Translations under genes and position numbers: made by a program | Notes under the pieces: model-generated | The model's input: the letters and a program-made list of their open reading frames with translations, nothing else | Told to the model about the DNA's origin: nothing | The model's database searches: none | Part shown: piece by piece, positions 14,012 to 56,700 of the stretch | Layout of the letters: the number at the start of each line of letters is the position of its first letter | How positions within the stretch are numbered: position 1 is the stretch's first letter | From: a virus | IMG/VR virus record: IMGVR_UViG_3300022752_000076 | Span: 1-59,716 of that record | Reading direction: 5' to 3' (one strand) | DNA: 59,716 nucleotides

Positions 14012-14114
14012 TTTTTATAATCATCAACCATTTACTGTATTAGAAGCCGTTAGCCTAATATTCGTACTAGGCTATACAGGCTATTACATTATTGCTGAAT
14101 TAGCTCAGTGGTAG
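13974..14114 (+). CDS. possible small membrane ORF ending in tRNA-Thr (46 aa)
   Basis: A TTG-started frame with a hydrophobic middle (EAVSLIFVLGYTGYYIIAE) whose stop TAG is the TAG of the tRNA-Thr D loop (14112-14114). No clear ribosome site, overlap of 38 bases with the previous gene. It may be accidental, but a membrane-span composition in this gap is noteworthy. Confidence 0.3.
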   Translation: MKNFANIKRSLLNFYNHQPFTVLEAVSLIFVLGYTGYYIIAELAQW

Positions 14115-14168
14115 AGCAACCGCCTTGTAAGCGGTAGGTCATCAGTTCAAATCCGATATTCAGCACCA
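14094..14168 (+). tRNA. tRNA-Thr (anticodon UGU)
   Basis: Regular cloverleaf: acceptor GCTGAAT/ATTCAGC, D arm AGCTC/GAGC, anticodon stem ACCGC/GCGGT around CTTGTAA, T loop TTCAAAT and encoded CCA. It is directly upstream of the permuted tmRNA and probably part of the same transcript. Confidence 0.95.
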
Positions 14169-14506: not shown

Positions 14507-14520
14507 ACCAAAGGATAAAT

Positions 14521-14730
14521 ATGGAACTAGAGTTTAAACATGCAGGTATGAGTGTTAGTTTTGAGTGTGATGGAGACGATCACTATGATCACGTTGATCT
14601 CCTACACAAGATCGCAGCTCTAGTTGAAGAGCTTGCCAGTCATACAGGCGTTAGTCTTGTAGTAATGAGCGACTATAAAGAATCAGATGAAGATGATAGT
14701 GAACAAGACGACAACAACTGGGAAGATTGA
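14521..14730 (+). CDS. acidic small protein (69 aa)
   Basis: ATG with AAAGGA upstream, just after the tmRNA. The product is acidic, with a DDHYDHVDLLHKIAALVEEL segment and a C-terminal run of Asp/Glu (EDDSEQDDNNWED). Such tails are common on proteins that mimic or compete with nucleic acids, or bind basic partners; no function known. Confidence 0.6.
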   Translation: MELEFKHAGMSVSFECDGDDHYDHVDLLHKIAALVEELASHTGVSLVVMSDYKESDEDDSEQDDNNWED

Positions 14731-35451: not shown

Positions 35452-37416
35452 ATGCAGGTAAGCACACGCGCACAGGTAATTACTCGTCGAACCTATAACA
35501 GGCCCACTAGCGACGACGGTAAACAATTTGAAACATGGGCACAAACAATCAGACGAGTACGTGATCATCAACACTGGCTGTGGGAGCGCAGCGTAGGTCG
35601 TCAGCTATACTTTAATGAAGTAGCCGAACTAGAACAGCTAGAAGAACTAATGCTAGCTAGAAAAGTATTAATGAGTGGGCGCACATTATGGCTAGGTGGT
35701 ACAGCTGTAGCACAAACTCGTGAAGCATCGCAGTTTAATTGTAGCTTTACACAGGTAGAAACAGTATATGATGTAGTTGACGTATTATGGTTGTTGCTAC
35801 AAGGTTGTGGTGTAGGGTTCAAACCCATTGTAGGTACACTTAATGGATTCTCAAAGCCAATCAAAAATATTCAAGTTGTTAAAAGCCAACGAACAGCTAA
35901 GGGCGGACTTGAACACAATGTTGAAACCTGGGATAACAACACAAAAACTTGGACAATACAAGTTGGAGACAGTGCAGAAGCCTGGGCTAAATCTATCGGC
36001 AAGCTCCTTGCTGGCAAATGGCCTGCTGATACTCTTGTGCTTGATTTTAGTCAGCTCAGACCTGCTGGGGAAAGGTTAAAAGGATATGGATGGATTAGCA
36101 GTGGTGACAGTGCTATCTCAAAAGCTTATGTTGCAATTGCCAACATACTTAATGGTAGGGCTGATAGCCTTCTCACTAGGATGGATATTCTGGATATTGT
36201 TAACCATCTCGGAACGATCTTGTCCAGTCGTAGATCGGCTGAAATTGCTCTTTTCGACTATGGTCAACCGGAGTGGGAAGAATTTGCAATAGCTAAAAAA
36301 GATTTTTGGTTGTATGGTCGTGAGCATCGTCAGCAGTCAAATAATAGTCTTGTATTCAAAGAAAAGCCTACTAGAAGTGAATTAAAGCATATATTTAATC
36401 TTATGCAGGAGGCTGGCGGTAGTGAGCCAGGATTTATCAATGAACAAGAAGCTCTTAGACGTGCTCCGTGGTTTAAAGGAGCGAATCCCTGTGTCGAAAT
36501 CTTATTGGGAAACAAAAGCTTCTGTAACCTTACAGAAACGGACATCTCCAAGTTTAAAGGTGATACTGCCGGATTACATGATGCGATCAGACTCGCTGCC
36601 AGGGCAAATTATCGTCAGACCTGTGTTAATCTTAAAGACGGGATCTTACAAGAAGCGTGGCACCTTAACAACTATTTCCTACGTCTCTGCGGGGTTGGTT
36701 TAACAGGTATTGCAATGCGTCCAGATATGAATAGCTATGACTATGAATATCTTAAACGCACGGCAACTAGTGCAGCTATTAGCATGGCGGATGAATTAGG
36801 CCTACCACGTCCTAAAAATGTTACCTGCGTTAAGCCGTCTGGAACATTATCAAAGATCATGGACTGTACAGAAGGCGTGCACAAGCCACTAGGCAAATAC
36901 ATTTTCAATAATGTGCAATTTAGTACTTATGATCCTGTTATTCCACTAATGCGTGAAGCAGGCTATAAAGTAATGAATCATCCAACTGATCCTACTGGCG
37001 TTCTAGTAACATTCCCAGTAGAATGGAAAGATGTACCATTTCATAAGGAAAACGGCAAAGAAGTTAATCTTGAAAGTGCAGTGCATCAACTAGAGCGGTA
37101 CAAAATGTTACAAACTAGTTGGACGCAACAAAATACATCGGTAACTATTAGTTATGACACTAGTGAGGTTAATGATATTATAGATTGGTTGTTGAATAAC
37201 TGGGACTGTTATGTAGGTGTTAGTTTCATCTATAGAACTGATCCAACTAAAACAGCTAAAGATTTAGGGTATTTATACCTACCTCAAGAAGTTGTAGATG
37301 AGTACACGTTTAAACACTATGTACAAGACCTAAAACCTGTTAGTTTAGAAAACGCTAATAGTTTTGACGAATTGTTAGATGATGAGTGCGTTAGCGGAGT
37401 TTGTCCCGTTAAATAA
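35452..37416 (+). CDS. nrdJ: class II (B12-dependent) ribonucleotide reductase
   Basis: 654 aa. The reductase barrel shows MSGRTLWLGGTAVA, REASQFNCSF (first redox Cys), the LLLQGCGVGF segment, NPCVEILLGNKSFCNL (N-C-E active site, second Cys), KPSGTLSKIMDC, and at the end DDECVSGVCPVK (C-terminal redox Cys pair). This matches monomeric adenosylcobalamin-dependent enzymes that reduce NTPs. There is no second subunit gene in the window, consistent with class II. It depends on B12 supplied by the host. A terminator follows. Confidence 0.93.
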   Translation: MQVSTRAQVITRRTYNRPTSDDGKQFETWAQTIRRVRDHQHWLWERSVGRQLYFNEVAELEQLEELMLARKVLMSGRTLWLGGTAVAQTREASQFNCSFTQVETVYDVVDVLWLLLQGCGVGFKPIVGTLNGFSKPIKNIQVVKSQRTAKGGLEHNVETWDNNTKTWTIQVGDSAEAWAKSIGKLLAGKWPADTLVLDFSQLRPAGERLKGYGWISSGDSAISKAYVAIANILNGRADSLLTRMDILDIVNHLGTILSSRRSAEIALFDYGQPEWEEFAIAKKDFWLYGREHRQQSNNSLVFKEKPTRSELKHIFNLMQEAGGSEPGFINEQEALRRAPWFKGANPCVEILLGNKSFCNLTETDISKFKGDTAGLHDAIRLAARANYRQTCVNLKDGILQEAWHLNNYFLRLCGVGLTGIAMRPDMNSYDYEYLKRTATSAAISMADELGLPRPKNVTCVKPSGTLSKIMDCTEGVHKPLGKYIFNNVQFSTYDPVIPLMREAGYKVMNHPTDPTGVLVTFPVEWKDVPFHKENGKEVNLESAVHQLERYKMLQTSWTQQNTSVTISYDTSEVNDIIDWLLNNWDCYVGVSFIYRTDPTKTAKDLGYLYLPQEVVDEYTFKHYVQDLKPVSLENANSFDELLDDECVSGVCPVK

Positions 37417-37452
37417 AAAAAGCCCAGTAGATTGCTCTACTGGGCTTTTTTC
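37415..37452. terminator. bidirectional terminator between opposing gene blocks
   Basis: A run of A, AAGCCCAGTAGA (37420-37431), loop TTGC, TCTACTGGGCTT (37436-37447), then T run. It can end both the RNR transcript (plus) and the tail/lysis block (minus). Confidence 0.92.
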
Positions 37453-38804: not shown

Positions 38805-39053
38805 TTACTTCTTTTCCGGTACTTTGTGACCATCCAATTTTTCGTGTACTTTAACTTCCTTACAAACTTGCTCTGGCTTACCATCTTTGCCAATAACAGG
38901 CTTACCATCTTTTACTTTATCAATACAAGCTTTTTCCTTTTTAGCTGGAGCTTTTTCTTCTTTTTTAGCTGGTTCATCCTTTTTTGCATCTGCTGCATAT
39001 ACTGATCCTGCTAAAAATACTGAAGTTAAAAGTGCTAATAGAATTTTAGTCAT
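38805..39053 (-). CDS. exported lysine-rich small protein (82 aa)
   Basis: Signal peptide MTKILLALLTSVFLAGSVYAA, followed by a Lys/Ala/Pro-rich segment (AKKDEPAKKEEKAPAKKEK) and two Cys bounding a DGKPVIGKDGKPEQ repeat. It should be periplasmic. Similar low-complexity exported proteins are found next to phage lysis genes. No function known. Confidence 0.65.
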   Translation of the reverse strand: MTKILLALLTSVFLAGSVYAADAKKDEPAKKEEKAPAKKEKACIDKVKDGKPVIGKDGKPEQVCKEVKVHEKLDGHKVPEKK

Positions 39054-39064
39054 ATAGGTTCCTA

Positions 39065-39511
39065 TTATAGTTCTGGAAATGGTTGTTGTGGAGGCGCTGC
39101 TTTGCCACCAAAACCAACAGTTACTTGATTACCACCAGTTGATGGACCTATACTAACACTGCCATTACTGCCTAAGGTAACTGTTGGCATAGGTGTTGGG
39201 CTTGGTGGTTTATCCCAACCTTTATTTGCAGCTTTAAGTGCTTCACGCTGCCCTTCTTTATCACCACTAGCTAACATAATACCACTAAGTGTGCCTGTTA
39301 AAAAAGTAGCAATAGGAATAATTAATTCAAAAAATTTATTATCTACAGGACTCATACCGTTCATAGGTTGAGTAACAAATATTAAGCTGTAGAGAACAAC
39401 AAATACAATACCAAACAGTGTTAGTGCTAATATCATACCAATAAAAAACTTAAGCCTAGCCATTAACTCATCTTCAGTATAGCGCGGGCCTTCCCATAGG
39501 TCTTTAATCAT
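39065..39511 (-). CDS. membrane protein, two spans, possible holin-like (148 aa)
   Basis: Residues about 20-45 (RLKFFIGMILALTLFGIVFVV and more) and about 62-82 (LIIPIATFLTGTLSGIMLAS) are hydrophobic spans, followed by a Pro/Gly/Thr-rich tail. Size and topology are compatible with a class II-type holin, but there is no sequence match. ATGA overlap with the lipoprotein gene. Confidence 0.55.
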   Translation of the reverse strand: MIKDLWEGPRYTEDELMARLKFFIGMILALTLFGIVFVVLYSLIFVTQPMNGMSPVDNKFFELIIPIATFLTGTLSGIMLASGDKEGQREALKAANKGWDKPPSPTPMPTVTLGSNGSVSIGPSTGGNQVTVGFGGKAAPPQQPFPEL

Positions 39512-39723
39512 CTACAATCCTTTTGAGTTTGAACTGGCAGGGACTTATTAGAGTTATTTACTCTGTCTTTTTCATATGGTGTTAAATCTTCGGGGCAAGT
39601 GCCATTTGCACTGCAATATGGTCGTTTACAAACTTTGTGATCCCAATTATCTGGATTCTGACAAGGATACCTATACATATCACTACAACCGGATAATAGT
39701 ATAGTTAGTAATAATATTCGCAT
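39508..39723 (-). CDS. small lipoprotein (71 aa)
   Basis: Begins MRILLLTILLSGCSDMYRY: hydrophobic stretch and lipobox LLSGC, so the mature protein starts at Cys12 and is anchored in a membrane. The mature part has several further Cys (PCQNPD, VCKRPYC, TCPED) that could form disulfides in the periplasm. A role in lysis or surface exclusion is possible but unproven. Confidence 0.62.
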   Translation of the reverse strand: MRILLLTILLSGCSDMYRYPCQNPDNWDHKVCKRPYCSANGTCPEDLTPYEKDRVNNSNKSLPVQTQKDCR

Positions 39724-39730
39724 TAGTCAC

Positions 39731-40387
39731 CTACTTATTAGCTAGCGGATTATCAAGTGCCCGTTTAAGATCTTCTGCTAATTTCTTGTCCAAGGCTTTT
39801 AATTTACTATCTACTTCTCTATCTTGAGCACGAAGTTGTTGCTCAGTATTTCTAATTGCTGCACTAACGTCTTTATTTAGTTGTGTACTGGCACTGTCAA
39901 CTTGTTTTTGTGCTGCACGTATTTCAGTTTTAGCCTCTGCTACAGCCTTATCTACATCACGACTAATTTGTTTATTACTGCGCTCTACTTCTTCTACTAC
40001 TTTTTCTAGCCTGCGTATATCACCTTTAAGATCATTTTTAATATCACGAGTATATTCAGCAGTTTTATCACTACCTTCTTGAACAGCTTGAGCAGTTTTT
40101 GTAGCATTTTCTTCAATAACTGCTAGCCGCTTATCAAATTCACTAAAGTCTGGGCTTACATATTCGGCAATTTTTTTCTTCATGCCCATATAATCTTTGT
40201 AAACTTCAAATACACCATATAATCCGCCTAAAGTACTACTAACTATTGTAGCAGCGACCATTAGTTTAGCAGGAGTAAAATCATAGCCGCCTATACTAAT
40301 AACAGTATCTTTGCTAGCATATTTTTTAGCAGCAGCTTCTAGGTCATCAACCTTTTTGTCTAAGTTTACCTTTTCATCACTCATCAT
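39731..40387 (-). CDS. membrane-anchored coiled-coil protein (218 aa)
   Basis: A short helix, a hydrophobic segment near residues 42-62 (LMVAATIVSSTLGGLYGVF) and then about 120 residues of charged heptads (KDLKGDIRRLEKVVEEVERSN ...), predicting a long coiled coil. Overlaps the start of the small membrane gene before it. It may span the inner membrane with a coiled-coil stalk, spanin-like in layout, but lies apart from the better spanin candidates. Confidence 0.58.
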   Translation of the reverse strand: MMSDEKVNLDKKVDDLEAAAKKYASKDTVISIGGYDFTPAKLMVAATIVSSTLGGLYGVFEVYKDYMGMKKKIAEYVSPDFSEFDKRLAVIEENATKTAQAVQEGSDKTAEYTRDIKNDLKGDIRRLEKVVEEVERSNKQISRDVDKAVAEAKTEIRAAQKQVDSASTQLNKDVSAAIRNTEQQLRAQDREVDSKLKALDKKLAEDLKRALDNPLANK

Positions 40388-40481
40388 CTTTTTCCTTAAA
40401 TGAAGTTGCTAGTATCCATAAACCAAATATAAATAAAATTACATGTAATAATGCTGTATAGTTTGTATTAACTATTTCCAT
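40377..40481 (-). CDS. very small membrane protein (34 aa)
   Basis: ATG at 40479-40481 with AGAGG five bases upstream. It encodes one hydrophobic span (TALLHVILFIFGLWILATSF) and an acidic tail. The stop overlaps the next gene. The good ribosome site and topology support a real gene, perhaps holin-like. Confidence 0.58.
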   Translation of the reverse strand: MEIVNTNYTALLHVILFIFGLWILATSFKEKDDE

Positions 40482-40482
40482 A

Positions 40483-42210
40483 TTACCTCTTATATTGTTG
40501 ATCAATCATTTGTTGATGCACGCTATCACTACTAAGTTGTCTCAGTACTCTGGAGTTATCAACTATTCGTTGATTTCTGTAAACCTCTTTAACGGGGTAA
40601 AATGAAGCATCTTGTAATACAAAATTTAAGTATTGGTTATATCCAGTAGGAGCAGTAGCCAGTTGAGTTAATGGTATACCTGTTGCTAATTCATTATCAG
40701 TAGTATTAGATTTTATTTGTTGTGTTGTTTGTTTAGTTTCGGTTTCATTAAGTTGAGGTTTTGAGTCAACAATTTGGTTAATTGGGTCTGCCTTATTAGT
40801 TAAAAAATTTTGTTGTTGTGTGGGTACTTCTGTAGTTTGATTAGCAAGTGGATTTATTAGTGCTAATTGATTACCTGGACTAGTATTTTGAGTACTAGTT
40901 TGCTGAATTTGTTGAAAATTAGGTATTATAGTATTTATTGTTTGCTGTACACTTGTAACTTGTTGTAAGCTATTTGTACTAGTACTAGAACTATTAGTTT
41001 TTGGTAGTTCAATTAGTTGAACAGAGTTTATTTGAGTAGATTCTACTACGCCAGGTAGTTGTAGTAGATTAATTTGTTGGTTAGTATTTAATTGAAATAA
41101 ATTTTGTTGATTAATGCTACTACTTTGAAATAATGATAAAGATTGTTCAGTTTTATTTTCTTTTTGTTTAACTTCTGCTTGTAACTGCTGTTGTTGAACT
41201 ATATTCAAATCAAAACTTTGTCTAATACTTCTATTAGCAATTTGCTCGGCTTGACGTAATACTTGCTGACTAACTTTATCAGTCTCATTAATAGCCGTAT
41301 TTGCTACATCTGTTGCTATTGATTGCTCTCGCTGTTGGTTGTCTTGTATTTTAAATAATGTATCAAGTAATCTATCAATGCCATCAAAAGCATATTGCTC
41401 CTCTAACTCTGTATTTCTACCTTCTTGCAAATTTTCTTCAATATATTTTATTGGTTTATTTCCACCACTACTTTGATCACTAGTATAGTCTATATTAGTT
41501 GGCTTAATAGTTGAATTGTCTACTGTATAACTTTCAGAATTTTTTGCTAGCGTTTCCTGAAATTTAGGGCATTCAGGGCTGTACAGTGGATTATTAACAC
41601 AAGGATCTGGTTTATATCGTAGTCTAAAATTAACATTTGTTATTTCTGGACCATAAGGTCCCGTCCAATAGTTATTATCTTTACCACTAAATCCAAATAA
41701 TACATTAGCTAAATCATCCGGTCTACGTCCTTTACTCCAATCTTGCGACCAAGTAAAATCAGTCCAATCGTGTAAAAAATTAAGATTATAACCAAAGTTT
41801 TCTATCCACTTACCGCTTTTAGTATACCCTTGTACATATGCACTTAATTGATCTAAGCTGCCGTTATCCCAACCATTTCCATTTTTACTACGCCAACTAA
41901 ATGTAAATCCAGTAGTAATAAGGCCGCTACCATTATTGGGTAGAGCCTTACTTACATTTACTATCTGATACAATTCAGTATAATTATAGCTAAAATTTAT
42001 ATTACCATCAGGTCGTAGATACGGAGTGCCAGGACTACAATTTGGATCTCCACCTTTCCAACACTCTAAACTGTTAACAAATTTGGCATTTTGCCAAGTA
42101 GATGTTATAGTTGTTGCAGTTGTAGTATTATTTACTAAGTTACCCGTAATGTCTATAGTTTGGGCTGTAGCGGTATTAAATAACAATAGTAGTATAGCCA
42201 GCCATTTCAT
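40483..42210 (-). CDS. exported protein with lectin-like N-part and Gln/Asn-rich stalk (575 aa)
   Basis: Signal peptide MKWLAILLLLFNTATAQ. Residues about 25-215 contain many aromatic/Gly strands (ECWKGGDPNCSPGTPYLRP, FTFSWRSKNGNGWDNG, LRYKPDPCVNNPLYSPECP) with paired Cys, like a carbohydrate-binding or jelly-roll domain. From about residue 270 to 500 it becomes a long Gln/Asn/Ser-rich region predicted as extended or coiled coil. It is exported rather than being part of the classical tail, an unusual type for a phage. No family name is certain. Confidence 0.6.
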   Translation of the reverse strand: MKWLAILLLLFNTATAQTIDITGNLVNNTTTATTITSTWQNAKFVNSLECWKGGDPNCSPGTPYLRPDGNINFSYNYTELYQIVNVSKALPNNGSGLITTGFTFSWRSKNGNGWDNGSLDQLSAYVQGYTKSGKWIENFGYNLNFLHDWTDFTWSQDWSKGRRPDDLANVLFGFSGKDNNYWTGPYGPEITNVNFRLRYKPDPCVNNPLYSPECPKFQETLAKNSESYTVDNSTIKPTNIDYTSDQSSGGNKPIKYIEENLQEGRNTELEEQYAFDGIDRLLDTLFKIQDNQQREQSIATDVANTAINETDKVSQQVLRQAEQIANRSIRQSFDLNIVQQQQLQAEVKQKENKTEQSLSLFQSSSINQQNLFQLNTNQQINLLQLPGVVESTQINSVQLIELPKTNSSSTSTNSLQQVTSVQQTINTIIPNFQQIQQTSTQNTSPGNQLALINPLANQTTEVPTQQQNFLTNKADPINQIVDSKPQLNETETKQTTQQIKSNTTDNELATGIPLTQLATAPTGYNQYLNFVLQDASFYPVKEVYRNQRIVDNSRVLRQLSSDSVHQQMIDQQYKR

Positions 42211-43433
42211 CTAAACCAACCTACTGGTTTAACTGTAGTAGGAACTTCGGCTATAGTCTTGTAATCATATTGAGGTATTTTTTGCGGATTAGACGCCCAC
42301 AATTCTTTAGCCTGTTCGCCTATTTTACCTTCATATGGGCAAGGCGTACCAGCAGCTAGCATAGCTTCAAAAATTCTGCGATCCTGACACATAGTAGCTA
42401 CAGCAGCTACCTTCATTCCCATGTCATAAAGAGTTTTACTTAGTTTTAGTCGTTCGCAGTTTAGATCACGCTGTGTTCCACCAAGTGCCATACCTAAAAA
42501 TTGTGTTTGAACGGCCCCACTACTACCAGTTGTACAAAGATCTGCTCCTCCGCCACTCATCATTGCTGGCGCTATTGCTGTAGGAGGTGGCTGTATAACT
42601 CGCTGAGTAATACTAGTTTCGTTAATATTACGATTAGTCATGTCGCCGGTTTGTACATTTTGATTTACGCTGGTACTAGTATTAACATTATTATTTTGAT
42701 TATTACTAGCAGTTATATTAGTATTAATATTACGATTAGTCATGTCGCCAGTTTGTACATTGTTTACTGTGCTATTACTAGTTGTATTATTATTATTGTT
42801 ATATGTCATAGTGCCAGTATTAATATTATTATTTGTATTTACGCTGTTGGTATTATTATTAAATGTTTGTGTACCACTATTAATATTTTCATTTCTAGTA
42901 GTTGTAGTATTAACATTATTATTATTGTATGTCATAGTGCCACTATTAACATTATTATTATTATATGTCATAGTACCACTATTAATATTATTATTGGTAT
43001 TAACGCTAGTAGTATTATTGTTATTATTGTAGGTAACGCTACCACTCATATTGTTGTTATTGTTATAAGTAACGGCTCCACTCATGTTATTGTTGTTATT
43101 ATACGTAACACTGCCACTCATACGATTATCATTAATATTAGTAGCTGTACCACTTTGTATATTGTTATTTGTATTAACATTAGTGCTGGTACTAACATTA
43201 TTATTAGTATTAATGTTATTGCTATTTACAGTACTAGTACTGGTAGCTGTGCTTGTGCTTGTGCTTGTATTATTTGTTGTCACAGTACTGGTGCTAGCAC
43301 TAGTACTATTAGTATCTACTAAGCTACGACCACCATCATAATTGCCTTGGTCAATTAATGGAGGATTTGTTTGAGCTATAGTTGCCGATACTAAGCTGAT
43401 TAAAGTTATTATAAAGGCTAATACTCTTTTCAT
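42207..43433 (-). CDS. exported Asn/Thr-rich repeat protein with conserved C-terminal domain (408 aa)
   Basis: Signal peptide MKRVLAFIITLISLVSATIAQ. Residues about 45-270 are tandem degenerate repeats of the type NNNNMSGSVTYNNN or NTNNNINSGTMTYNNN, which would build a beta-solenoid or amyloid-like fibre. The C-terminal 110 residues hold four Cys (DLCTTGSSG, LNCERLKLS, ATMCQDRRIF, AGTPCPYEG) and look like a folded domain. The next gene overlaps its stop. An extracellular or envelope-associated fibre is inferred. Confidence 0.65.
   Translation of the reverse strand: MKRVLAFIITLISLVSATIAQTNPPLIDQGNYDGGRSLVDTNSTSASTSTVTTNNTSTSTSTATSTSTVNSNNINTNNNVSTSTNVNTNNNIQSGTATNINDNRMSGSVTYNNNNNMSGAVTYNNNNNMSGSVTYNNNNNTTSVNTNNNINSGTMTYNNNNVNSGTMTYNNNNVNTTTTRNENINSGTQTFNNNTNSVNTNNNINTGTMTYNNNNNTTSNSTVNNVQTGDMTNRNINTNITASNNQNNNVNTSTSVNQNVQTGDMTNRNINETSITQRVIQPPPTAIAPAMMSGGGADLCTTGSSGAVQTQFLGMALGGTQRDLNCERLKLSKTLYDMGMKVAAVATMCQDRRIFEAMLAAGTPCPYEGKIGEQAKELWASNPQKIPQYDYKTIAEVPTTVKPVGWFR
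42740..43160 (-). repeat. tandem coding repeats in the Asn/Thr-rich gene
   Basis: A series of short repeats built on ATTATTATTATTG and CCACTCAT units on the plus strand, coding NNNN + MSG(A/S)VTY or SGTMTY blocks. Unit lengths vary, suggesting gain and loss of copies. Confidence 0.6.
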
Positions 43434-43453: not shown

Positions 43454-44068
43454 TTAGTGGCCTAGTATATGTAAGCAATGCTCGTAGTGCTTTTTCCTAT
43501 CTTCTAAGCCGATTGTTCCGCCATTAATGCGTTTTGTAAGTGTGAGTATGTCACGCTTGTCTGCCCATTGATTTAAATTGTTACTTTCCCAAAACCAGCA
43601 GGCGCTTTGTGCAGCACCTTCAAAGGTTTCCATATATTCTGATGCTTCTTCAGGACTAATCTGCAAACTAGCAGCAAACCAGCTATAGTTTTCTCGACCA
43701 GTTACTTGTATAAGTCCACGCCCGCAAAATCGCCAACCATCGCCCGACTCTTCAGGCCCATTGCCCATGCGGTTAGCATAAACACGATTAGCAATTTTTT
43801 GTGGTTGTTTTTCATATTGCTGCGCCAATGCATCCGTGGGAAAATACTTGGGAAAAACTTTACGCAAGCTTGCCCACTTGTAGTTTAAATTTTCTTTAAT
43901 AAAAACAAAACCACCTGACTCATGTGCACATTGTGCTAAAAACGCTGCTATACGTTCCGCAGTATTAATTTCATATTGAGGTAGTAGTTGCGCTAGTGCA
44001 TCGTGCCAATAGCTAACATATTGATTTTTTGGTATAACTTGTTTTAATTGATCTAGTGTTAATTCCAC
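43454..44068 (-). CDS. endolysin, GH19 chitinase/lysozyme-like (204 aa)
   Basis: GTG start with AAGGAG upstream. Residues 35-70: ERIAAFLAQCAHESGGFVFIKENLNY with the HE catalytic pair, later RVYANRMGNGPEESGDGWRFCGRGLIQVTGRENY (second Glu and the GH19 GRGxxQxTG hallmark), and TKRINGGTIGLEDR. No signal peptide, so it needs a holin. It degrades peptidoglycan at the end of infection and lies next to the spanin-like genes. Confidence 0.93.
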   Translation of the reverse strand: MELTLDQLKQVIPKNQYVSYWHDALAQLLPQYEINTAERIAAFLAQCAHESGGFVFIKENLNYKWASLRKVFPKYFPTDALAQQYEKQPQKIANRVYANRMGNGPEESGDGWRFCGRGLIQVTGRENYSWFAASLQISPEEASEYMETFEGAAQSACWFWESNNLNQWADKRDILTLTKRINGGTIGLEDRKKHYEHCLHILGH

Positions 44069-44070
44069 TA

Positions 44071-44328
44071 CTACTCCTTATTAAAAATTCGTTGCTGTGT
44101 TGTATACCACTCTATCCAAGCACTATTATTTCCACTACATATATAATACTCTATGTAGTTTTCTACAACTATTTTAGTTAATTCGCTTAGCTGTACACCA
44201 CTGGGAGCAGTTTTTAATGGCTTGCAATGTTCAAGCAGTGGCTTAGGTGCTTGTGGAAATTGTTGCTTAACAGGCACAGTAGTAGAACAACTTGATAATA
44301 ATAAAACTAATATTAAAAAGTATTTCAT
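44071..44328 (-). CDS. outer-membrane lipoprotein, probable o-spanin (85 aa)
   Basis: MKYFLILVLLLSSCSTTVPV: lipobox LSSC, mature protein short and Pro-rich (QQFPQAPKPLLEHCKP) with a later helical part, like Rz1-type outer spanins though longer. Overlaps the i-spanin-like gene by four bases and precedes the endolysin. Confidence 0.7.
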   Translation of the reverse strand: MKYFLILVLLLSSCSTTVPVKQQFPQAPKPLLEHCKPLKTAPSGVQLSELTKIVVENYIEYYICSGNNSAWIEWYTTQQRIFNKE

Positions 44329-44735
44329 TGTTTTGCTGCCTTATTATGTGCTTCTACTACTGGTTCTGGTATTTTGCAATTTTCATCGTACTTGACAACT
44401 TCGCGATCTACATATTTAATTACTTCACTTCCTTGCAGTCTAACAAGCTCACGCTTAGTAACCACTTTTTCCACGATTTTAGTATTTTCTTTAGCACTTT
44501 CTGCTTGTGCCACTGCTAGTTGCTGTTCAACTTCTTTAACTTTTGCTAACCAATAATTATTATTCCAGTTTGCTCCTGTTAAAAATAAACTAATTACAAG
44601 TAGCACAACGCTAGCATAGTGCAGTAGTTGTACTTGTGGTAAGTTACGAATAAATTTAGTAGCAATAAATACTATAAGACTTAATGCCGCTAAACTAGGA
44701 AATAGCCAATCGGGTAAGAATTGAAGTAAAAACAT
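44325..44735 (-). CDS. membrane/coiled-coil protein, probable i-spanin or holin-spanin (136 aa)
   Basis: Two hydrophobic stretches: about residues 10-30 (LFPSLAALSLIVFIATKF) and 38-55 (HYASVVLLVISLFLTGAN), then a periplasmic-type coiled coil (VKEVEQQLAVAQAESAKENTK). Its position directly before the lipoprotein and endolysin genes matches an inner spanin; the first span could also be holin-like. Confidence 0.68.
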   Translation of the reverse strand: MFLLQFLPDWLFPSLAALSLIVFIATKFIRNLPQVQLLHYASVVLLVISLFLTGANWNNNYWLAKVKEVEQQLAVAQAESAKENTKIVEKVVTKRELVRLQGSEVIKYVDREVVKYDENCKIPEPVVEAHNKAAKQ

Positions 44736-44739
44736 AATA

Positions 44740-45999
44740 TTATATCTTTAACAATGAGGGTAATCTAACTCCATCTGGTTTAACAGCAGCTAACCAAGCA
44801 GTTACAATTGGTACATTAATACTGCGTAACCATTCATTGGGAAACCAAGTTTGCATCCTATAAGATTGAAATCGTATGGTTGTATTACGAATATACCTTG
44901 CTAAATTAGCATCAGTATAGTATAAGAAGCTATTTTCATTCCAATAACTAACGTGCGTAGGATCTTGAAATGCTCCACGACCATCAGTGCTAGGCACATC
45001 AATAAATGCCCAACCACCATGTGCAAGTACTCTATGTATCTCACTCATAGTTTTAGTTTTATCATATAAGTGCTCTATAACGTGACTAGCGTTAACAATA
45101 CCTACGCTATTATCATTAAGTGGAATACCCTTATTAAGATCACAGTTAATATGTGCACCTTCTTGATCTATAGTTATATATCCAGGTAATCCATTAATTC
45201 CGCCGCCTATGTCAACTTTTAACAATCCACGTAGCTCGCAATCTCGTTCAGCTAATTGTCTAGCATATTGATAGAATAGCTCAACGGTTTTTGATTGTAT
45301 TAGCGCATTTCGTTCTAGCCAAGTATTGTCACCAGTAATTCTATATACATATAATACTTTATCTATTTTCTTAAACTTAGTTACTAAGTACGTTCTAATC
45401 ATTAGCTCGTGATCATCGCATACAGATAGTTCAGGGTTATGACCACCAATTTCTCGATATACACTTGCACGCCAAGCACGAACATGATCAGGTGAATACC
45501 ATATAAAACCTACGCTGTGACTAGTAGCCGTAAATGGATTCATACTAAACAGTTCCATATCTCGAAACTTAACTGTTTTATGTGTCCAGCCAAATGCTTC
45601 ACTGTATGGCAAAAATTTATTTTCCATGTGATAGATAGCATCGTGGCTGTGTACAAAACCAATAGTATCATCAGCTAATAGTTCGCTGCAAATACTCTCT
45701 AGGCAATCTGGTGTTATAATATCATCATGATCTACTTCTACTAAGACGTCGCCACTGGCTAAATTAAAAGCACAATTTTTTAAGTAACCTACATTTGTAT
45801 TAGCACTAGTATCTCTGTGAATTTTAACCCTAGCATCAGCTTTAATCGTTTCAGGTAAATCTTGTGCTGTAATTAAACCATTTAAATATACTACCCACTC
45901 CCAATTAGTATACGTTTGATCTAAAATACTTTCATATAATTCTAATAAGTATGGTATGTTTTTAACACTATGAGTTGGAGTTATAATACTAGCTAACAT
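44740..45999 (-). CDS. fused glycosyltransferase family 2 / SAM-dependent methyltransferase (419 aa)
   Basis: The N-terminal 220 residues are a GT-A glycosyltransferase: MLASIITPTHSVKNIPYLLEL, the DXD-type DVLVEVDHDDIITPDCLE, and VCDDHELMIRTYLV. The C-terminal 180 residues are a class I methyltransferase: LKVDIGGGINGLPGYITID, NASHVIEHLYDKTKTMSEIHRVL (motif post I/II) and GGWAFIDVPSTDGRGAF. Such enzymes decorate phage or host glycans; the target is unknown. Overlaps the glycosyltransferase gene before it (TAATG). Confidence 0.85.
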   Translation of the reverse strand: MLASIITPTHSVKNIPYLLELYESILDQTYTNWEWVVYLNGLITAQDLPETIKADARVKIHRDTSANTNVGYLKNCAFNLASGDVLVEVDHDDIITPDCLESICSELLADDTIGFVHSHDAIYHMENKFLPYSEAFGWTHKTVKFRDMELFSMNPFTATSHSVGFIWYSPDHVRAWRASVYREIGGHNPELSVCDDHELMIRTYLVTKFKKIDKVLYVYRITGDNTWLERNALIQSKTVELFYQYARQLAERDCELRGLLKVDIGGGINGLPGYITIDQEGAHINCDLNKGIPLNDNSVGIVNASHVIEHLYDKTKTMSEIHRVLAHGGWAFIDVPSTDGRGAFQDPTHVSYWNENSFLYYTDANLARYIRNTTIRFQSYRMQTWFPNEWLRSINVPIVTAWLAAVKPDGVRLPSLLKI

Positions 46000-46898
46000 T
46001 AGGTTGTACTTTTAATATGTTTGGTTATGTTGGTAGTAATCTCATCTAACTGCTGTTTAGTAAAGTTTAATAGATTACCGTTTTCTAATTCTGCAAGATG
46101 CCACTCAAATTCAGCAAATCTAAATGGCATATATTTTTTATCTTTTATGTCATTGATAATGTTATAATGATCTGGATAACTGGCATTTATAACATTAGTT
46201 CCGCCAAATATTACGCTGCCGGGCTTATTAAAGCATCTGGCAATATGTTGTGCGCTGCTATCTATACCCAATAAATAGTCACAATTAGCTAGTATAGCTG
46301 CCAGAGCACGAACATCACTAGGCGCTACTGGTATAAAGTCGTCTTGAGATAAAAACCCAATTTGTTGATCAGTAACTAAAAATAGTGCATAGTCTCGTTT
46401 AAGCCTACTAACTAAGTATTTTATAGTTTCTGTATTTAATGACCTAACACTAGTATCTACTACTGTTTCGCCCTCTATTTTAGCAGTACTGCCCAGCGGC
46501 TGAAATGCTATTACTTTGCGACCATTAGCATATTTTCTTAGCTGTGCTGCATTGGCTAGTTCTGTGCTGCTTAAATATAGCTTGGGTATTCCCACAGGTT
46601 CTTTATCTAGATTAATTTCTTGATTAAACGCAGCTATAAGATGCGCACGCTCATTAATATAATCTATGTTATAGTAAGGCTCAGGTTTAATAATCTGTGT
46701 ATTGCGTATGCGCTGAAATAACCCTTTAGTAGTATTATCAAAAACTTTATCGGTTAATAGTTTATTACCCCACAATAGCTGCGTCCAGCCATAGGTTACT
46801 ATAGTAGTTTCCGGATGTTTTTGTACAAATCGTTCAAGAGCTGGTATAGCGCAAACTACTCTGCCCATGCCACCGTCTATTAGTAGTGTTTTATTCAT
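45999..46898 (-). CDS. glycosyltransferase, GT9/heptosyltransferase-like (299 aa)
   Basis: LLIDGGMGRVVCAIPALERF (nucleotide-binding loop), VTYGWTQLLWGNK, FQPLGSTAKIEGETVVD, and the late DYLLGIDSSAQHIARCFNKPGSVIFGGTN, which is the GT9 donor-site signature. In bacteria GT9 enzymes transfer heptose in LPS cores. In this phage cluster it probably works with the GT2/methyltransferase fusion. Confidence 0.78.
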   Translation of the reverse strand: MNKTLLIDGGMGRVVCAIPALERFVQKHPETTIVTYGWTQLLWGNKLLTDKVFDNTTKGLFQRIRNTQIIKPEPYYNIDYINERAHLIAAFNQEINLDKEPVGIPKLYLSSTELANAAQLRKYANGRKVIAFQPLGSTAKIEGETVVDTSVRSLNTETIKYLVSRLKRDYALFLVTDQQIGFLSQDDFIPVAPSDVRALAAILANCDYLLGIDSSAQHIARCFNKPGSVIFGGTNVINASYPDHYNIINDIKDKKYMPFRFAEFEWHLAELENGNLLNFTKQQLDEITTNITKHIKSTT

Positions 46899-47528: not shown

Positions 47529-47930
47529 TTATTCGACTACTTCTGTTATTGGTTGTTCAACGTGAGAAAACTCCCAGTTTAAAGTTTGCTCATTCCACAT
47601 CCAGACTTCGCCGTTAGGCGAATCTGGATACGGTTTAGGTGCTTTCCAAGCTAGATTAGGTAAGTCTAAAACCCAACTCGGATACAGTTTAGCTCCTATA
47701 AACACATCGGCTTCTGGTAGGTATACATCACCAGTTGCTGCATACTTATTCCTAAAACTGTTATTATAGCTAGTTTGTACCCACTTTCTATTTGTATTGT
47801 AAACAGTGTTTAAAAAATCGATACCTAGTTGTTCTTGTTCTATACCGTTGCTATCTAATAATACGGCATTATCAACAACTTCTACTCTAATAACTACATT
47901 ATTGTCATCTAATTTTGCAAAGTGTGCCAC
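47529..47930 (-). CDS. tail-associated conserved protein, paralog of 53311 (133 aa)
   Basis: GTG start (47928-47930) with AGGAG upstream. MAHFAKLDDNNVVIRVEVVD, YNNSFRNKYAATGDVYLPE, KLYPSWVLDLPNLAWKAPKP and WNEQTLNWEF align with the product at 53311. Such proteins are found next to tail fibre genes in marine phages; function unknown, perhaps a fibre-tip or assembly factor. Confidence 0.75.
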   Translation of the reverse strand: MAHFAKLDDNNVVIRVEVVDNAVLLDSNGIEQEQLGIDFLNTVYNTNRKWVQTSYNNSFRNKYAATGDVYLPEADVFIGAKLYPSWVLDLPNLAWKAPKPYPDSPNGEVWMWNEQTLNWEFSHVEQPITEVVE

Positions 47931-50900: not shown

Positions 50901-51699
50901 GAGTAGTTAAACCGGTTGTTACAACCTTGCCAGTAAACGTAGTTGTACCACTAGTATTACCATATAAAAATGGTCCGGTTGCTTCAGAAGTATTATTATA
51001 ACTACTACCACCAGCTGTACCAAGCGGTCCGCCGCCACCGCCTCCACCACCATATTGAAAATTTCCCATAGCGCCTAGAAAGGTGGGCCCGCTGCCACGT
51101 CCGCCACTAGCACCTTGTAGTGGGCTTGCCGCAGGAGTATTACCAGCACCACCATCAAGTATACCGCTAACCTCAACGGCACCCGTAGTGTTGGATATTT
51201 TTCTACTTGCACCACCTCCACCACTAGCGCCGGCTATGGCTAGGCGCTGCATAGAAGGAATAACACATACTCCCGAAACATCTGGATAACTAACGCCACC
51301 ACCGCCGCCAGCTACAACAAAACAATTATTGTCAGCATTTAAACTGCATAAAAAACTACAACCACCATTAGTACCTAAATTGCTAATTAATTTGGCAAAG
51401 CTATTAACAGTTAGAGCAGTAAGACTAGTTGAAAAAGTCTGGGATTCAAATATATATTCTCGGCAAGTAGTAGTATTATTAACTATGCTACCAGTACCAG
51501 CACCAGTACCACCGGCTCCAACACCTATTATAAATGCACAGCCAGCTTGTAGCGGTATTTGACCTTGCTTAACTCCACCGCCACCTCCACCACCGCCAGT
51601 TTCAGCACCTCCACCTCCACCTCCACCAACTATTAAGTAGTCTAGTGTTAGTGCCCCTTGTGGTGCTACCATTAAAGGACCTGCTAATACGCCTGCCAT
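47947..51699 (-). CDS. giant glycine-rich tail/adhesin protein (1250 aa)
   Basis: ATG at 51697-51699 has AGGAG seven bases upstream and overlaps the stop of the previous gene (TAATG). The sequence is built of Gly-rich blocks (VGGGGGGGAETGGGGGGG, SGGRGSGPTFLGAMG, GGGGGGSVTYSG) between beta-type strands ending in VxLRYKTG or IVRYCAN, repeated several times. Poly-glycine runs recall adhesins of phages such as Salmonella phage S16, where they pack as polyglycine II helices. Probably a receptor-binding or fibre protein. Confidence 0.78.
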   Translation of the reverse strand: MAGVLAGPLMVAPQGALTLDYLIVGGGGGGGAETGGGGGGGGVKQGQIPLQAGCAFIIGVGAGGTGAGTGSIVNNTTTCREYIFESQTFSTSLTALTVNSFAKLISNLGTNGGCSFLCSLNADNNCFVVAGGGGGVSYPDVSGVCVIPSMQRLAIAGASGGGGASRKISNTTGAVEVSGILDGGAGNTPAASPLQGASGGRGSGPTFLGAMGNFQYGGGGGGGGPLGTAGGSSYNNTSEATGPFLYGNTSGTTTFTGKVVTTGLTTLINTISSTAGMAIGQGVYKTGSGGGSVGDFAKITCINSSTSITVQAATNNTACATAATFVYHAIASAKGGDGTPSCITGTNTYYGGGGGGSVTYSGTATLCTNWPGYCTLWPGGLGGGGNGGSRNVTGATDGTANRGGGGGGSGSNCLSYSTKTGRWILDALHRGGHGGSGIVILRYKTGALPVTCTGNPTVSTVGGDTVLCFTGTGQICFGQAVTTIPIEYVVVGGGGSGASVVEQPNYTNMSSTGAYASYLGGGGGAGGYLSSSTNLLPNIPISISIGAGGAAAGTTATADVTARRVGNNGQSTCFGQIMANGGGGGGSRSVNVTSLENTTNSGGCHGGSGGGGAGMLMASSSDTSVAYGTAFTTAGIGNCMLITGLCGNSGGTGIQYAAGGGGGASTAGALTTLTSTGGNGCVNATIWPFTNINAYAAGGGGAIYIPTASQDQTTFYSYGGNTNLSYNRCGLGGSGSVSFNTTYSPAMLRPQNAHPCSWGSGGGGLGVWKRNTQISNSPAAQLGLSGQGTGGAVFIKYSAKYPAATVTGSPTYCTDLTHRYYRFTGTGTFNIAASEFPDNYNLSTDKSSYVEGEKIIVHIITKGLANGTQLNWTQTGTSSTSDFAEAVNSGTVTITDNFASLTFTTLRKFTTTTKTFIFNLLDLSNTLLTSLSSITIAGNNQVEYLIVGGGGAGGNDAAVSSGGGGGGQVCSGVIAVTVGTTCPVTVGGGGASVPSATGANPGNGQPSSVFGITAVGGGIGAGCTYTSATVSTAVAHAATTLGGGGGGQAGIGGTAAARKVVCTAAGNGGTTFLSALNEGSSTFSNYSTYTGAGGGANGPGNNYIAQQFNATNGDATHPGGIGCLFLQWAIDTNSGDRGYFGAGGAGAKSGGISKSFGYPNYGGGGCYNFVNNVTTGFDGMANTGGGGSASSHTGGRLTGGTAIPAVSKNGGSGIVIVRYCANVSAATGGTIYCQNGYVYHKFIATGNLVF

Positions 51700-53099
51700 T
51701 AACTTACTCCTATACCGGTAACGTACCAAGTAGTATTATTTACTCGTAGTAAAACTGCTTGGCCATAAGACACTATGGTTTTATTACCTAGACTACCTGC
51801 TGCTAGCCTTAAGTTTACTCCTGCAGCGGATTCTAAGATTAGTGTAGCAGTACTATCGTTGATAATTATTATAGTAGTACCCAATGGAAATACTGTAGCT
51901 GTTGAATCTACTGGTACGGTTATTGTTGCAGCACTGGTAAAATATAAGTGTTTACCACTGTCTGCCCCGACTAGTGTATATGTAGTTCCAGCCCCCATAG
52001 ACTTTTGAACTATTTCTCTAAATCCTAGTCTGTGCGCTGTACCTGTGTCGGCTACATCGTCATATAATTTTGAGTCAACACTAATGTACTTGCTGTAAAA
52101 TGAGTTTTTTGCTGGGTCAAAACTAATATCCGCATCATCTACTAGTTGACCATTAGCACCAGCTAGTACAACTCTGCCTATTGTAGCTAATGAACCTACA
52201 TTTACTTTTCCAGCACCTAGTGTATCTGTAGCGCTATCATAAGTTAGTGTACTATCATCAACTAGCTTTCCGCCAGTGGTTGCTACAACTACTCTGCCTG
52301 CGGTTAAGTTACCGGCAGCTATGTTAGCACTTAATAACGTGCTTGTACCAGTGTTAAAAGTAACGTCGCTGCTTGAAGCTAATTTTCCGCCAGCACCAAC
52401 AAATATTACTCCATTAGTAGTATTTGCAGCAGTTATAGCTACATTAGCAGCAGTTAATGTGTTATTAGCAAATGTAAGCCCTGAATCGTGACTAAAATTA
52501 TTGCTGTCATTTATTTGTACACTGCCTGTACTGCCAGATGCTGTAGCGTTTGAACCTTGTGGACCTGGTGCACCTTGATCGCCTTGGCTGCCTTGACTAC
52601 CCGTAGGGCCTTGAGCACCAGTAGCACCTTGAGCACCAGTAGCACCTTGAGCACCAGTAGTACCTTGAGCTCCAGTAGCACCTTGAGCTCCAGTATCACC
52701 TTGACTACCTTGTGGTCCCGTAACGCCTGCAAAACCTTGAGGACCTATAGGGCCTGCTGCACCTTGTGGTCCTGCTGCAGCTAATAAATCCCAAAACACA
52801 GTCCAGTTGTTTCCAAAATTTGGCTTATTTGTACTTGTTGCGCTGGTATGTTGTAGCTTACACATATAGCTACTACCATCTAATTGTACCATATCACCTT
52901 GGTTATAGCTAGTAAAATCAGTCCAAGTTCCGCGAGCAGATACAGTAGCATATGGTAAACTAGCCCAAGTAGTAATACCATTACCTACTTTAAATTTTGT
53001 AGTATCTAATTCAACGCCTAATTCACCTTCGGCTAAAACTGGATTACTACTAAGCCATTGTGAGGCTGTTCCTCTTCTAAGTTGTATTCGTTGTGGCAT
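51699..53099 (-). CDS. tail fibre with Mtd-type N-terminus and collagen-like stalk (466 aa)
   Basis: Begins MPQRIQLRRGTASQWLSSNP ... AEGELGVELDTTKFKVGNG, the N-terminal type seen in major tropism determinant and other phage fibre proteins. Residues about 113-182 are Gly-X-Y triplets (GPQGAAGPIGPQGFAGVTG, then GAQGAT repeats). The rest is a beta-rich head with repeats (GRVVVATTGGKLVDDSTLTYDS, GRVVLAGANGQLVDDADI). The Gly-X-Y part is a trimeric stalk. Confidence 0.85.
   Translation of the reverse strand: MPQRIQLRRGTASQWLSSNPVLAEGELGVELDTTKFKVGNGITTWASLPYATVSARGTWTDFTSYNQGDMVQLDGSSYMCKLQHTSATSTNKPNFGNNWTVFWDLLAAAGPQGAAGPIGPQGFAGVTGPQGSQGDTGAQGATGAQGTTGAQGATGAQGATGAQGPTGSQGSQGDQGAPGPQGSNATASGSTGSVQINDSNNFSHDSGLTFANNTLTAANVAITAANTTNGVIFVGAGGKLASSSDVTFNTGTSTLLSANIAAGNLTAGRVVVATTGGKLVDDSTLTYDSATDTLGAGKVNVGSLATIGRVVLAGANGQLVDDADISFDPAKNSFYSKYISVDSKLYDDVADTGTAHRLGFREIVQKSMGAGTTYTLVGADSGKHLYFTSAATITVPVDSTATVFPLGTTIIIINDSTATLILESAAGVNLRLAAGSLGNKTIVSYGQAVLLRVNNTTWYVTGIGVS
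52603..52700 (-). repeat. 18-bp tandem repeats coding Gly-Ala-Gln-Gly-Ala-Thr
   Basis: Units of the type GCACCAGTAGCACCTTGA on the plus strand repeat with slight changes, period 18. The same period and near-identical unit recur at 59605-59716. Confidence 0.75.
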
Positions 53100-53310: not shown

Positions 53311-53724
53311 TTAAGGTGCCGGTTCTGGCTCTGGTGTTGGCTCTGGTGGTGGAACTATTTCAGTCCAATTTAGCACTGTTTCGTTCCACTCGTAGTATTT
53401 ATCAGGTTCTACTGGCGGTGCTGGTACTGGAGCTTTCCATGTGCAACTTGCGTCATCTAATACCCAGCTTGGATATGGTTTTGGCGGTATAAAACAATCT
53501 CTAGCAGGATCATAGCTATATCCTATAGCAGCGTAGTTTTTTCTGTAGGGTGTTCCGCCAGCAATGTGTACTCCAGCATAGGTATTATAACTAGTGCGTT
53601 TACAAGTTTGGCCTCTAAAACTACCATACCACTGTTCCCAGTCAATACCATCTTCGCCTTCATCTTTGCCAACAATTACTTCTGTGACAATATTGTTATT
53701 ATCTAAAAATGCATAATGTGCCAT
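53311..53724 (-). CDS. tail-associated conserved protein, paralog of 47529 (137 aa)
   Basis: AAAAGG upstream of the ATG. MAHYAFLDNNNIVTEVIVG, CKRTSYNTYAGVHIAGG, YRKNYAAIGYSYDPARDCF and PYPSWVLDDASCTWKAPVP align with the 133-aa protein at 47529. A Pro/Glu tail ends the protein. Duplicated within the tail gene cluster. Confidence 0.75.
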   Translation of the reverse strand: MAHYAFLDNNNIVTEVIVGKDEGEDGIDWEQWYGSFRGQTCKRTSYNTYAGVHIAGGTPYRKNYAAIGYSYDPARDCFIPPKPYPSWVLDDASCTWKAPVPAPPVEPDKYYEWNETVLNWTEIVPPPEPTPEPEPAP

Positions 53725-53739
53725 GTAAAAACCTTTTAC

Positions 53740-56700
53740 TTATGCGAATACTAATTTAAAAGTTCCTGTACCTGCTGTAATAGTACTAATTCTTGTACCT
53801 CCTGATACTGTACTTGAAATAGTTAAACCACTGCTAGTAATATTATAGGCGTTTGAATAACTAAGTATTAATACTCCGCTAGCACCGCTACCACCAGTTG
53901 CACCACTACCTGCAGGACTAGTTCCACCACCACCGCCGCCGCTACCAGTATTTATTGTACCTGCTGCTCCAGAAACACTATCACTATTACTACCTGCTCC
54001 ACCTATACCACTACTTCCTCCAGCACCAGCAGTACCAGCATTACTTCCACCGCCACCACCAGCAGCATATACTACACTACTACCGGTTATTGTGCTAGTT
54101 ATACCTGCTCCACCTGTGCCAGCAGTAGTACCACTAGCCGCTGTTCCAGCACTAAAAGTTCCGCCACCACCACCGCCACTACCAGTACCACCATTGCCAC
54201 CAGGCGTGCCAATAAAAATATTAGTACTAGTTACCAGTGCTCCTGTACCTACGGCATTAGGTGCTGTTGCACCTGCACCACCGCCACCACTACTACCCTG
54301 CTTAGCAATAACAACAGTAGTATTATTACTACCGCCACCGCCACCGCCTATTACTGGATATTGTAGTGCGCTAAAAGTAGTGTCATTGCCACTAGATCCT
54401 GAAAATGTTCTAGTGCTACTGCCGCTACCCCCTGCACCTATAGTAACACTGTAAGGATATTCAAGGCGTAAATTTAGTGTTCCAAATGTATAAGCACCGG
54501 CACCACCTCCACCACCTCGCTCACGACCGCCACCACCGCCACCACCTACAGCAACATAATTAGTAGCAACTGTAGCAAGTGTATTAAATTTAAGTGTACC
54601 AGTTCCACCAGTAAATTTATATATTTTATAACCACTATAAGTACTAGCATCTATGGTATATGTTAAACCAGAATCTATTTCACTAAAATAGCTGCTTTGT
54701 GGTACTTTAAACATAATTAAGCCGCTGCCGCCAGCTCCGCTACCTTTGGGTCCTATAGCCGTGGCCCCACTTCTGCCACCTGCTCCGCCACCGCTGCCAG
54801 TATTAGTAGCACCATCACCAAATCCAGTATAACCATAAGCACTACCATATGGTGCGTTCATATCTCCGCCACCTTTACCACCTATATTAGTGCCATTACC
54901 ACCACCACCAAAACCGCCGTTACCACTATCAGGATTTCCTGTAAAATAACTGCCTGAACCGCCACCGCCGCCACCAGCAAGCTCAACACCAAATAGTGTA
55001 ATACTGTTTCCACCACGTCCATTTGGCAGCTTAGTATCACCATTTTGATATATTCTATATGCACCTGTTCCGCTCATTGCTGGTGCACCTGCTCCGCCGG
55101 CTCCGCCGCCGCCACCACTATCTCCATAAGTTTGATGGTCTCCGCCTCTATGACCTTGATAGGCTGCTGCAGCTCCACTACCAATCTGATAACCGTTTCC
55201 ACCAGTACTACCGCCCCAGCTACCAGGACCATATTGTCCAGTACTATAACTATAACCATCTGGTGCAGTTTTGTTTGCAAATCCAGCGCTCATACCGTAT
55301 CCGCCACCAAATGCACGTATTGGTTGTTGTGTACCAACGGTTATGCTTGAGGTAACTCCATTGTTTCCATCTTGAGTATCACTAGCGTATACAGTAGAGG
55401 CTCCGCCTGCACCAACTGTAACTGTTAGTTGCTGGTTGGCTTCTAGGTCTAAATAACCTGTAACTACTCCACCGGCTCCTCCACCACCAACTCCACGAAA
55501 ACTATTGGTGTGCGCTCCACTAGCGCCGCCACCTACTGCTACATATTCTACTACGCTACTTACTGCTATTTGTGGTAGTTTTGTAGTTGCTGGCGTAAAG
55601 TTCTGTAGGTATCTGGCAATTTTACTGGCTCTAAACTCGTGTAAATATCCCCTATAAAATTCTGTGGTTAGTGCGGGACTAACACCTATAACACAAGCAC
55701 CATCAGTAAATGTTTGTGTGGTCAAATTCCATGTATTAGTACTTGCAGTGCCATTTATGTATATAGTTACTACATTTTCAAATCTAACTACCGCTACGTG
55801 GTTCCAAGCGTTTAACGTTAAACTGTTATTACTAGTTACTTGAAACGCGCTAGCACTATAAATAAATATCTGACCACTAACATTTAATCCTATATGAAAT
55901 CCGGTAGCGTTTGCTGCCGAATTACTTTGACAGTATACACTAATGTAATTAGCAAAAGTTTCTGGATATAACCACATTTCAACTGTAAAATCACCTAAAC
56001 CATAGCTGTGTAAGTTAGGATTATGAGATCTGGCACGAATATATGTACTAGTACCGTTGAAATATAGTGCTGTTTGACCTACGCGTTTTTGTTTGGTCGT
56101 TATTAGCGGATTACCTACTAATTCCAAAGTATTTTGTTCGGTTACATCATATGCACCTAATTGTAAACCATTAAGTAAAAGTACTGTTCTAGCAATTTTA
56201 GATGTTGAATAAAATGGAAGTAAGTTAGTAGTTGGCCTAGCAGGAGGTGAGTCGCTATAAGCTTGATTAGCTCCTTCAATAATCTGTAGGTTAGCTATAT
56301 ATCCATTCATAGGATTAGTAGAGCCGCCACGAGCACCCAAATATACAGCTTTAGTAGTAGTGCCAAATGCAGCTGCTGTACCATATGAACCAGTAGTATT
56401 AAATCCTGTGCCGTTAATATATCCGAAAATACTATTAGCACCAGCGGCAAGAGTTTGTCTAAAAATAGTTACATGATACCATTTTTTAGCTTGAATACCA
56501 GTATGACTTAATCTTAGTGTACTTCCATCTAAAAATACTTGTAGTGTTCCTGCAGTAGTTACTTCTATTACCCAATCAGTAGTAGCTGCTGCGGTATAAT
56601 TTCCTATCAAATGTTGTTGTGTGGCTAGTGTATTTAAATAAAACCAAAAACTAATACTAAAATCAGCTGGTGCAAATAAATTGCGAGTAGCTTGAGTTCT

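Follow-up and report, generated by a model that had tools for sequence, protein, structure and literature searches.

A co-conserved three-gene cassette of aquatic phages is a candidate for an undescribed envelope-associated system

We analyzed the whole of a single uncultivated virus record (IMGVR_UViG_3300022752_000076; 59,716 bases, 38% G+C; hereafter, the window) and found that three neighboring genes on its minus strand form a unit that recurs in many aquatic phages. Genes A (42207-43433), B (40483-42210), and C (39731-40387) encode two large proteins with export signals and a smaller protein with a transmembrane (TM) segment. The three genes travel together, and this co-conservation is solid. 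A first-pass annotation had grouped them with four neighbors into one undescribed envelope-type assembly. All seven minus-strand open reading frames (ORFs) are present, and the idea of such a set held for A, B, and C, but its boundaries did not, as the genes at 39508, 39065, and 38805 belong to a lysis operon. The A-B-C trio is real and stands as a promising candidate for an undescribed phage system, whose function we infer. In the boldest reading that we consider, with a probability of roughly 45%, A-B-C is an undescribed, horizontally mobile system whose products are exported by Sec and assemble in the periplasm into a glycan-recognition complex with an exchangeable recognition domain. This complex would control events at the envelope of the host as infection ends, and the system would be found in unrelated phages whose hosts include SAR11, Roseobacter, and further bacteria of fresh water and the sea.

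We gathered loci from three independent seeds (the A domain, C, and the lipoprotein encoded at 39508) and kept the best matches to each. Matches to B were added, and all ORFs of the collected loci were scored with profiles. At each of the 169 A loci with at least 4.5 kb of downstream sequence, an ORF of at least 180 residues directly follows A. An ORF ending in the C signature (NP[LM]x0-6) follows A in 167 of these 169 loci, as compared with 16 of 596 random anchors (2.7%). The independent C seed gave the same picture from the other side, with A present in all 63 C-centered loci that have 4 kb of upstream sequence. The A- and C-seeded sets overlap in part and hold 140 distinct A domains with C; because loci were chosen by closeness to the window, the co-conservation percentages lean toward its relatives. 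The evolutionary distances of A and of the B tail are also correlated (Mantel test, r = 0.61, above all 500 permutations), with r = 0.48 among the 14 loci where the cassette lies within a lysis operon.

The cassette is spread across named phages and other contigs. A is found in eleven named phage records: HTVC115P, HTVC202P, HTVC023P, HTVC033P, Mosig, and Baldr, which are Pelagibacter phages; the Roseobacter phages CRP-207 and CRP-810; MedDCM-OCT-S28-C10 (S28-C10); and two Manatee Spring genomes. In 10 of these 11 records we could read a C-like ORF whose terminus is NPL or NPM, and no C was identified by eye in ctXG6705. HTVC115P and some others carry small extra genes between the cassette members. 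Bacterial genome assemblies also gave matches, and the order A-B-C was seen in all nine that were read; these contigs are presumed viral. Cassette-bearing contigs reach 400 kb. Our search of the literature, mostly outside subscription journals, found no description of the A-B-C trio.

The same loci separate the cassette from the genes that follow it in the window. Among 79 loci centered on the 39508 gene, the 39065 gene is present in all 79, the endolysin in 63, and the spanins in 61-62, whereas A is present in only 16 and C in 19. The commonest order, found in 31 loci, is Rz-Rz1-endolysin-39508-39065-38805, without A, B, or C. The order of the window (Rz-Rz1-endolysin-A-B-C-39508-39065-38805-PhoH-37455) was found in 14 loci. 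In cassette-free loci, the endolysin and 39508 genes practically adjoin in 44 of 50 cases, whereas in cassette-bearing loci they mostly lie ~3.7-5.6 kb apart. A-B-C is therefore a unit that was inserted into, or lost from, the lysis operon, and the existence of empty lysis operons shows that it is dispensable. The genes at 39508, 39065, and 38805 are assigned to the lysis operon because dozens of related loci contain them but no A-B-C, which rules out a single seven-gene assembly. Thus, A, B, and C do not vary independently of one another, but the two modules within the block do. The remaining ORF of the seven (40377-40505, minus strand) sits between B and C and is not part of the core. It has a TTG start, 42 codons, and a hydrophobic segment by hydropathy, but it is doubtful, with a match in one relative only. 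The other six ORFs do carry the features ascribed to them: a signal peptide at 42207, 40483, and 38805, a lipobox at 39508, and TM segments at 39065 and, weakly, at 39731.

Nearly all homologs of A and B carry export signals. Signal peptides were called with a home-made test rather than SignalP, and the control consisted of the same proteins with their first 70 residues shuffled. The signal peptide of A in the window is MKRVLAFIITLISLVSATIA and that of B is MKWLAILLLLFNTATA, each with predicted cleavage before Q. The test was positive for 160 of 162 A proteins (32/162 when shuffled) and 125 of 128 B proteins (26/128 when shuffled). Nearly all were ordinary signal peptides (159/162 for A and 123/128 for B), with a lipobox in one and two cases, respectively. 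Two other window proteins, the tail fibre at 51699 and the structural protein at 53740, were negative. The test has its flaws, since a third protein (47947) was called positive when read from its TTG start.

B (575 residues) combines this signal peptide with a jelly-roll domain (residues ~20-205), a coiled coil (278-349), a disordered Gln/Asn-rich linker, and a conserved C-terminal tail (FYxxKEVYxxQ...HQxMIxQQY). AlphaFold modeled the N-terminal domain of the window protein as a beta-sandwich jelly-roll with a predicted local distance difference test score mostly above 90 over residues 21-205. Its fold matches have Z scores of 9.7-13 and include the sugar-binding domains of Fbs1 F-box proteins (Z 13), the K2-2 tailspike (Z 11), and CBM16 (Z 10). 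Identity to these carbohydrate-binding domains is only 10-16%, and B differs from them in adding a signal peptide, a linker, and a constant tail. The lectin-like character ascribed to this part by the first-pass annotation is therefore supported only at the level of the predicted fold, next to export signals and repeats that we do find in the two large proteins. When compared with viral models, the B model matched two full-length uncharacterized phage relatives, and the other matches were generic jelly-rolls.

The N-terminal domain of B shows the lowest conservation within the cassette, with a median pairwise identity of 34%, as compared with 68% (A domain), 55% (C), and 54% (B tail). In other phages this domain is swapped for undetectably similar sequences, with about a dozen types among 168 proteins, some of which are singletons or fragments. 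A, C, and the B tail are retained throughout these exchanges, and signal peptides occur in one or more members of 11 of 14 domain types. A tblastn search with B against the named phages gave no match, because B homologs mainly have their architecture and tail motif in common. The low identity and the swaps alongside constant partners fit recognition of variable host surfaces. Such a pattern of variable domain and constant tail is also typical of receptor-binding proteins, which raises the alternative that the virion carries A and B as receptor-binding or fibre proteins, with N-terminal hydrophobic segments that are not functional signals or with entry into the virion after lysis. The likeness to tailspike carbohydrate-binding domains and the position of the cassette among late structural genes suit this explanation, but tail fibres are encoded by separate genes nearby, and export signals (160/162 for A and 125/128 for B by our heuristic, imperfect test) are kept across the exchange of B N-terminal domains. 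No virion proteomics was found. Taken together, these points make a role in the virion rather improbable.

A published precedent bears on the same question. In marine metaviromic islands, a gene labeled "putative carbohydrate binding domain containing protein" heads the identifiable genes, and its presence in Mediterranean fosmid phages was read as host recognition by the virion (PMC3909814). B of S28-C10 and HTVC033P bears this label and is likewise highly variable. As far as the shared label goes, the precedent counts both for a virion role and for the glycan-recognition model proposed below. B differs in carrying a signal peptide.

Gene A encodes a 408-residue protein (phrog_20531) with a repeat region of Asn, Thr, and Ser after the signal peptide and a C-terminal domain with four cysteines. 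The window protein has 32% Asn, 21% Thr, and 11% Ser, and its repeats have a 12-residue period. Across the family, this region spans 21-521 residues with a median of ~75% N/T/S/Q/G. The C-terminal domain has four cysteines in 148 of 162 proteins and includes conserved blocks, NCERLKLSKTLYDMGMKVAAVATMCQD among them. A hydrophobic tail closes about half of the family's proteins but is absent from window A. AlphaFold was confident for the helices of the C-terminal domain only; the repeats were modeled as low-confidence beta strands. A Foldseek search of the PDB with the A model gave no match at E values up to 10, and a PDB sequence search with A gave none. A of CRP-810 is annotated as an OmpA family protein, a label that looks wrong.

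The period and predicted strands of these repeats are compatible with a phage-made surface fibre or amyloid, in which A would form curli-like fibres that clump host cells. Exported repeat proteins are known from SAR11 phages, as phage-encoded curli (type VIII secretion) clusters have been published in related marine phages (PMC7029224, PMC9599517). However, scans of A, B, C, and their neighbors gave no Pfam match to curlin repeats, CsgG, or CsgF at E values up to 1. The cassette lacks a secretion channel, and the repeat region varies widely in length among the homologs measured and is minimal in several. We consider a fibre of this kind highly unlikely.

In C (218 residues), a single weak TM segment is combined with a long coiled coil; the protein lacks a signal peptide and ends in DNPLANK. 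NPL or NPM occurs near the terminus in 149 of 150 family members. Counts of Lys and Arg favor a cytoplasmic C-terminus in 136 of 154 proteins, and short marine C proteins look opposite by eye. A PDB sequence search with C returned coiled-coil proteins only. The phage Mu releasin gp25 is a DUF2730 protein (PMC9239132) and resembles C in being small, encoded in the late region, and anchored by one TM segment. The N-out/C-in topology of a releasin is possible for C, with the two observations above pointing in opposite directions. GenBank also labels C of S28-C10 as DUF2730. That candidate was rejected, as window C and six other C proteins gave no match to PF10805 at E values up to 1. The window further differs from Mu in that its endolysin scored neither a signal nor an N-terminus of the signal-arrest-release (SAR) type and C is accompanied by A and B. 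A "lysozyme" label on C of CRP-810 (locus L101, 7204-7626) and CRP-207 (locus L102, 3292-3873) was likewise set aside: these homologs are TM coiled coils, and the CRP-207 protein has no Pfam hydrolase match.

The location of the cassette in the window suggests a role in lysis. By attaching to envelope glycans, A and B might act with the membrane protein C to weaken the outer envelope or tether it, speeding up lysis or virion release or improving its timing. The cassette lies inside the lysis operon in the window and in 13 further loci, and a TM coiled coil such as that of C is a common architecture for lysis proteins. The Rz/Rz1 spanins, too, are late exported and membrane-anchored proteins that adjoin an endolysin, and C is like them in combining a TM segment with a coiled coil, but A and B differ in being large and of a soluble type, in lacking a lipobox, and in having no sequence match to spanins. 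Five of the eleven named genomes carry a Pfam-supported wall hydrolase or holin within ~1.1 kb of the cassette, from unrelated families (Amidase_2 in HTVC033P, M15 in HTVC023P, phage lysozyme in ctXG6705, GH19 in ct7L0027, and a GTA-type holin in Mosig). In the other six, the nearest such gene found among the five families searched is ~10 kb or more away; S28-C10 has an annotated amidase ~4.6 kb from the cassette that had no match in this family search. Since a rough estimate of chance proximity is one in ~16 genomes, lysis linkage is above chance but no rule. A first impression of universal linkage, formed from the window and selected loci, failed genome-wide. The window already has an endolysin, its own Rz/Rz1 pair, and a holin candidate, and cassette-free lysis operons are common. 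On balance, we regard an accessory lysis function as rather unlikely, ranking it second after receptor masking or exclusion and ahead of a virion role.

No described family that we tested fits A-B-C. Late position, export signals, a sugar-binding-type fold, and the rapid exchange of that domain beside unchanging partners together suggest that the cassette recognizes a variable glycan of the host envelope, outside the cytoplasm. In the glycan-recognition model that we favor, A and B would pass to the periplasm via Sec and assemble through the B tail, with C perhaps serving as the inner-membrane anchor of the complex. The N-terminal domain of B would bind a host envelope glycan. Acting late in infection or at the moment of lysis, this complex may cover host surface glycans, so that the covered infected cell and its debris would no longer trap progeny or admit competitors. 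We tentatively propose such receptor masking or exclusion as the action of this mobile cassette on the host envelope; everything in the model beyond the export signals of A and B we infer.

Several points weigh against this model. It leaves unexplained how A and B would cross the outer membrane before lysis. The positive-inside count suggests that the coiled coil of C may be cytoplasmic. Jelly-rolls are also common to Cry toxin domains, ephrin receptors, and viral capsids, and the fold is no proof of sugar binding. Known exclusion factors are mostly single small proteins expressed early. Finally, C distances do not co-vary with those of A or B in the Mantel test, and among the 14 lysis-operon loci they follow 39508 (r = 0.74) and 39065 (r = 0.69). 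As the distance matrices link A to the B tail and C to lysis genes, A and B may form a functional pair with C as a looser partner.

The late genes of the window lie on the minus strand and begin with structural and tail proteins (53740-59070 and 51699-53099), reading toward the lysis genes. Between the tail genes and Rz lie a 2-oxoglutarate oxygenase and, directly upstream of the lysis operon, two ORFs that resemble glycosyltransferases by eye (44740-46898). These are followed by an Rz-like inner-membrane spanin (44325-44735), an Rz1-like outer-membrane spanin lipoprotein (44071-44328), the endolysin that precedes the cassette (43454-44068; phrog_181, with a weak GH19 Pfam match and neither a signal nor a SAR-type N-terminus scored), the seven ORFs, a PhoH-like ORF named by eye, and an ORF at 37455. 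Gene B overlaps gene A by 4 bases, and adjacent genes of the operon either share a few bases or have gaps of ~2-30 bases between them; these genes are thus probably co-transcribed and partly coupled. A terminator-like hairpin of 16 pairs (37416-37451), nearly symmetrical and reported on the plus strand, marks the 3' end of the operon by pattern match only.

The second module follows C on the minus strand. The gene at 39508-39723 encodes a small Cys-containing lipoprotein with an LLSGC lipobox; 53 of 89 family members score as lipoproteins in the home-made test. Its motif RYPCQ(N/D)PxNW...C..P.C...G.C..DL is also seen in a homolog (locus L134, 2834-3016), and a likely homolog lies right after C in ct7L0027, judged by eye. 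This lipoprotein is followed by the two-TM protein in all 79 loci, and they represent an unstudied lysis-operon pair. The two-TM protein (39065-39511; phrog_25359) is the best holin candidate of the window. The last gene (38805-39053) encodes a Lys-rich exported protein of 82 residues with the signal peptide MTKILLALLTSVFLAGSVYA and predicted cleavage before A; 53 of 61 family members were positive by the same test, as compared with 5 of 61 when shuffled.

Other neighbors recur beside the cassette. A DUF4337 membrane protein family was found in 41 of 140 loci, mostly downstream, and a phrog_32327 membrane protein in 39 of 140. In 11 loci, a cluster of nucleotide-cyclase-domain proteins is encoded downstream of C at a distance of at most 4 kb. 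Examples of the DUF4337 and nucleotide-cyclase neighbors include locus L037, 16794-17330, and locus L145, 7259-8488. Elsewhere in the window, two members of phrog_7759 (47529-47930 and 53311-53724) each lie shortly downstream of the gene for a large protein of structural or tail type and are perhaps assembly factors. The window also encodes a permuted transfer-messenger RNA (14112-14541; RF04321, 117.7 bits; tag ANDEVFALAA) that also scores above the gathering threshold for RF01850, the betaproteobacterial form, and these matches hint at a betaproteobacterial host.

The A-B-C trio is kept together across very different types of aquatic phage genome, including those of cultured SAR11 phages, and so it must be useful to them. 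Its members have been annotated as hypothetical or, wrongly, as lysozyme, OmpA, or TonB. The cultured carriers HTVC023P, HTVC033P, CRP-207, and Mosig make the cassette testable. B, which is exported and changes rapidly, may belong to a class of genes that has so far been read as virion host recognition in marine viromes. If the metaviromic-island genes are homologs of B, its export signal calls for a re-examination of that host-recognition reading.

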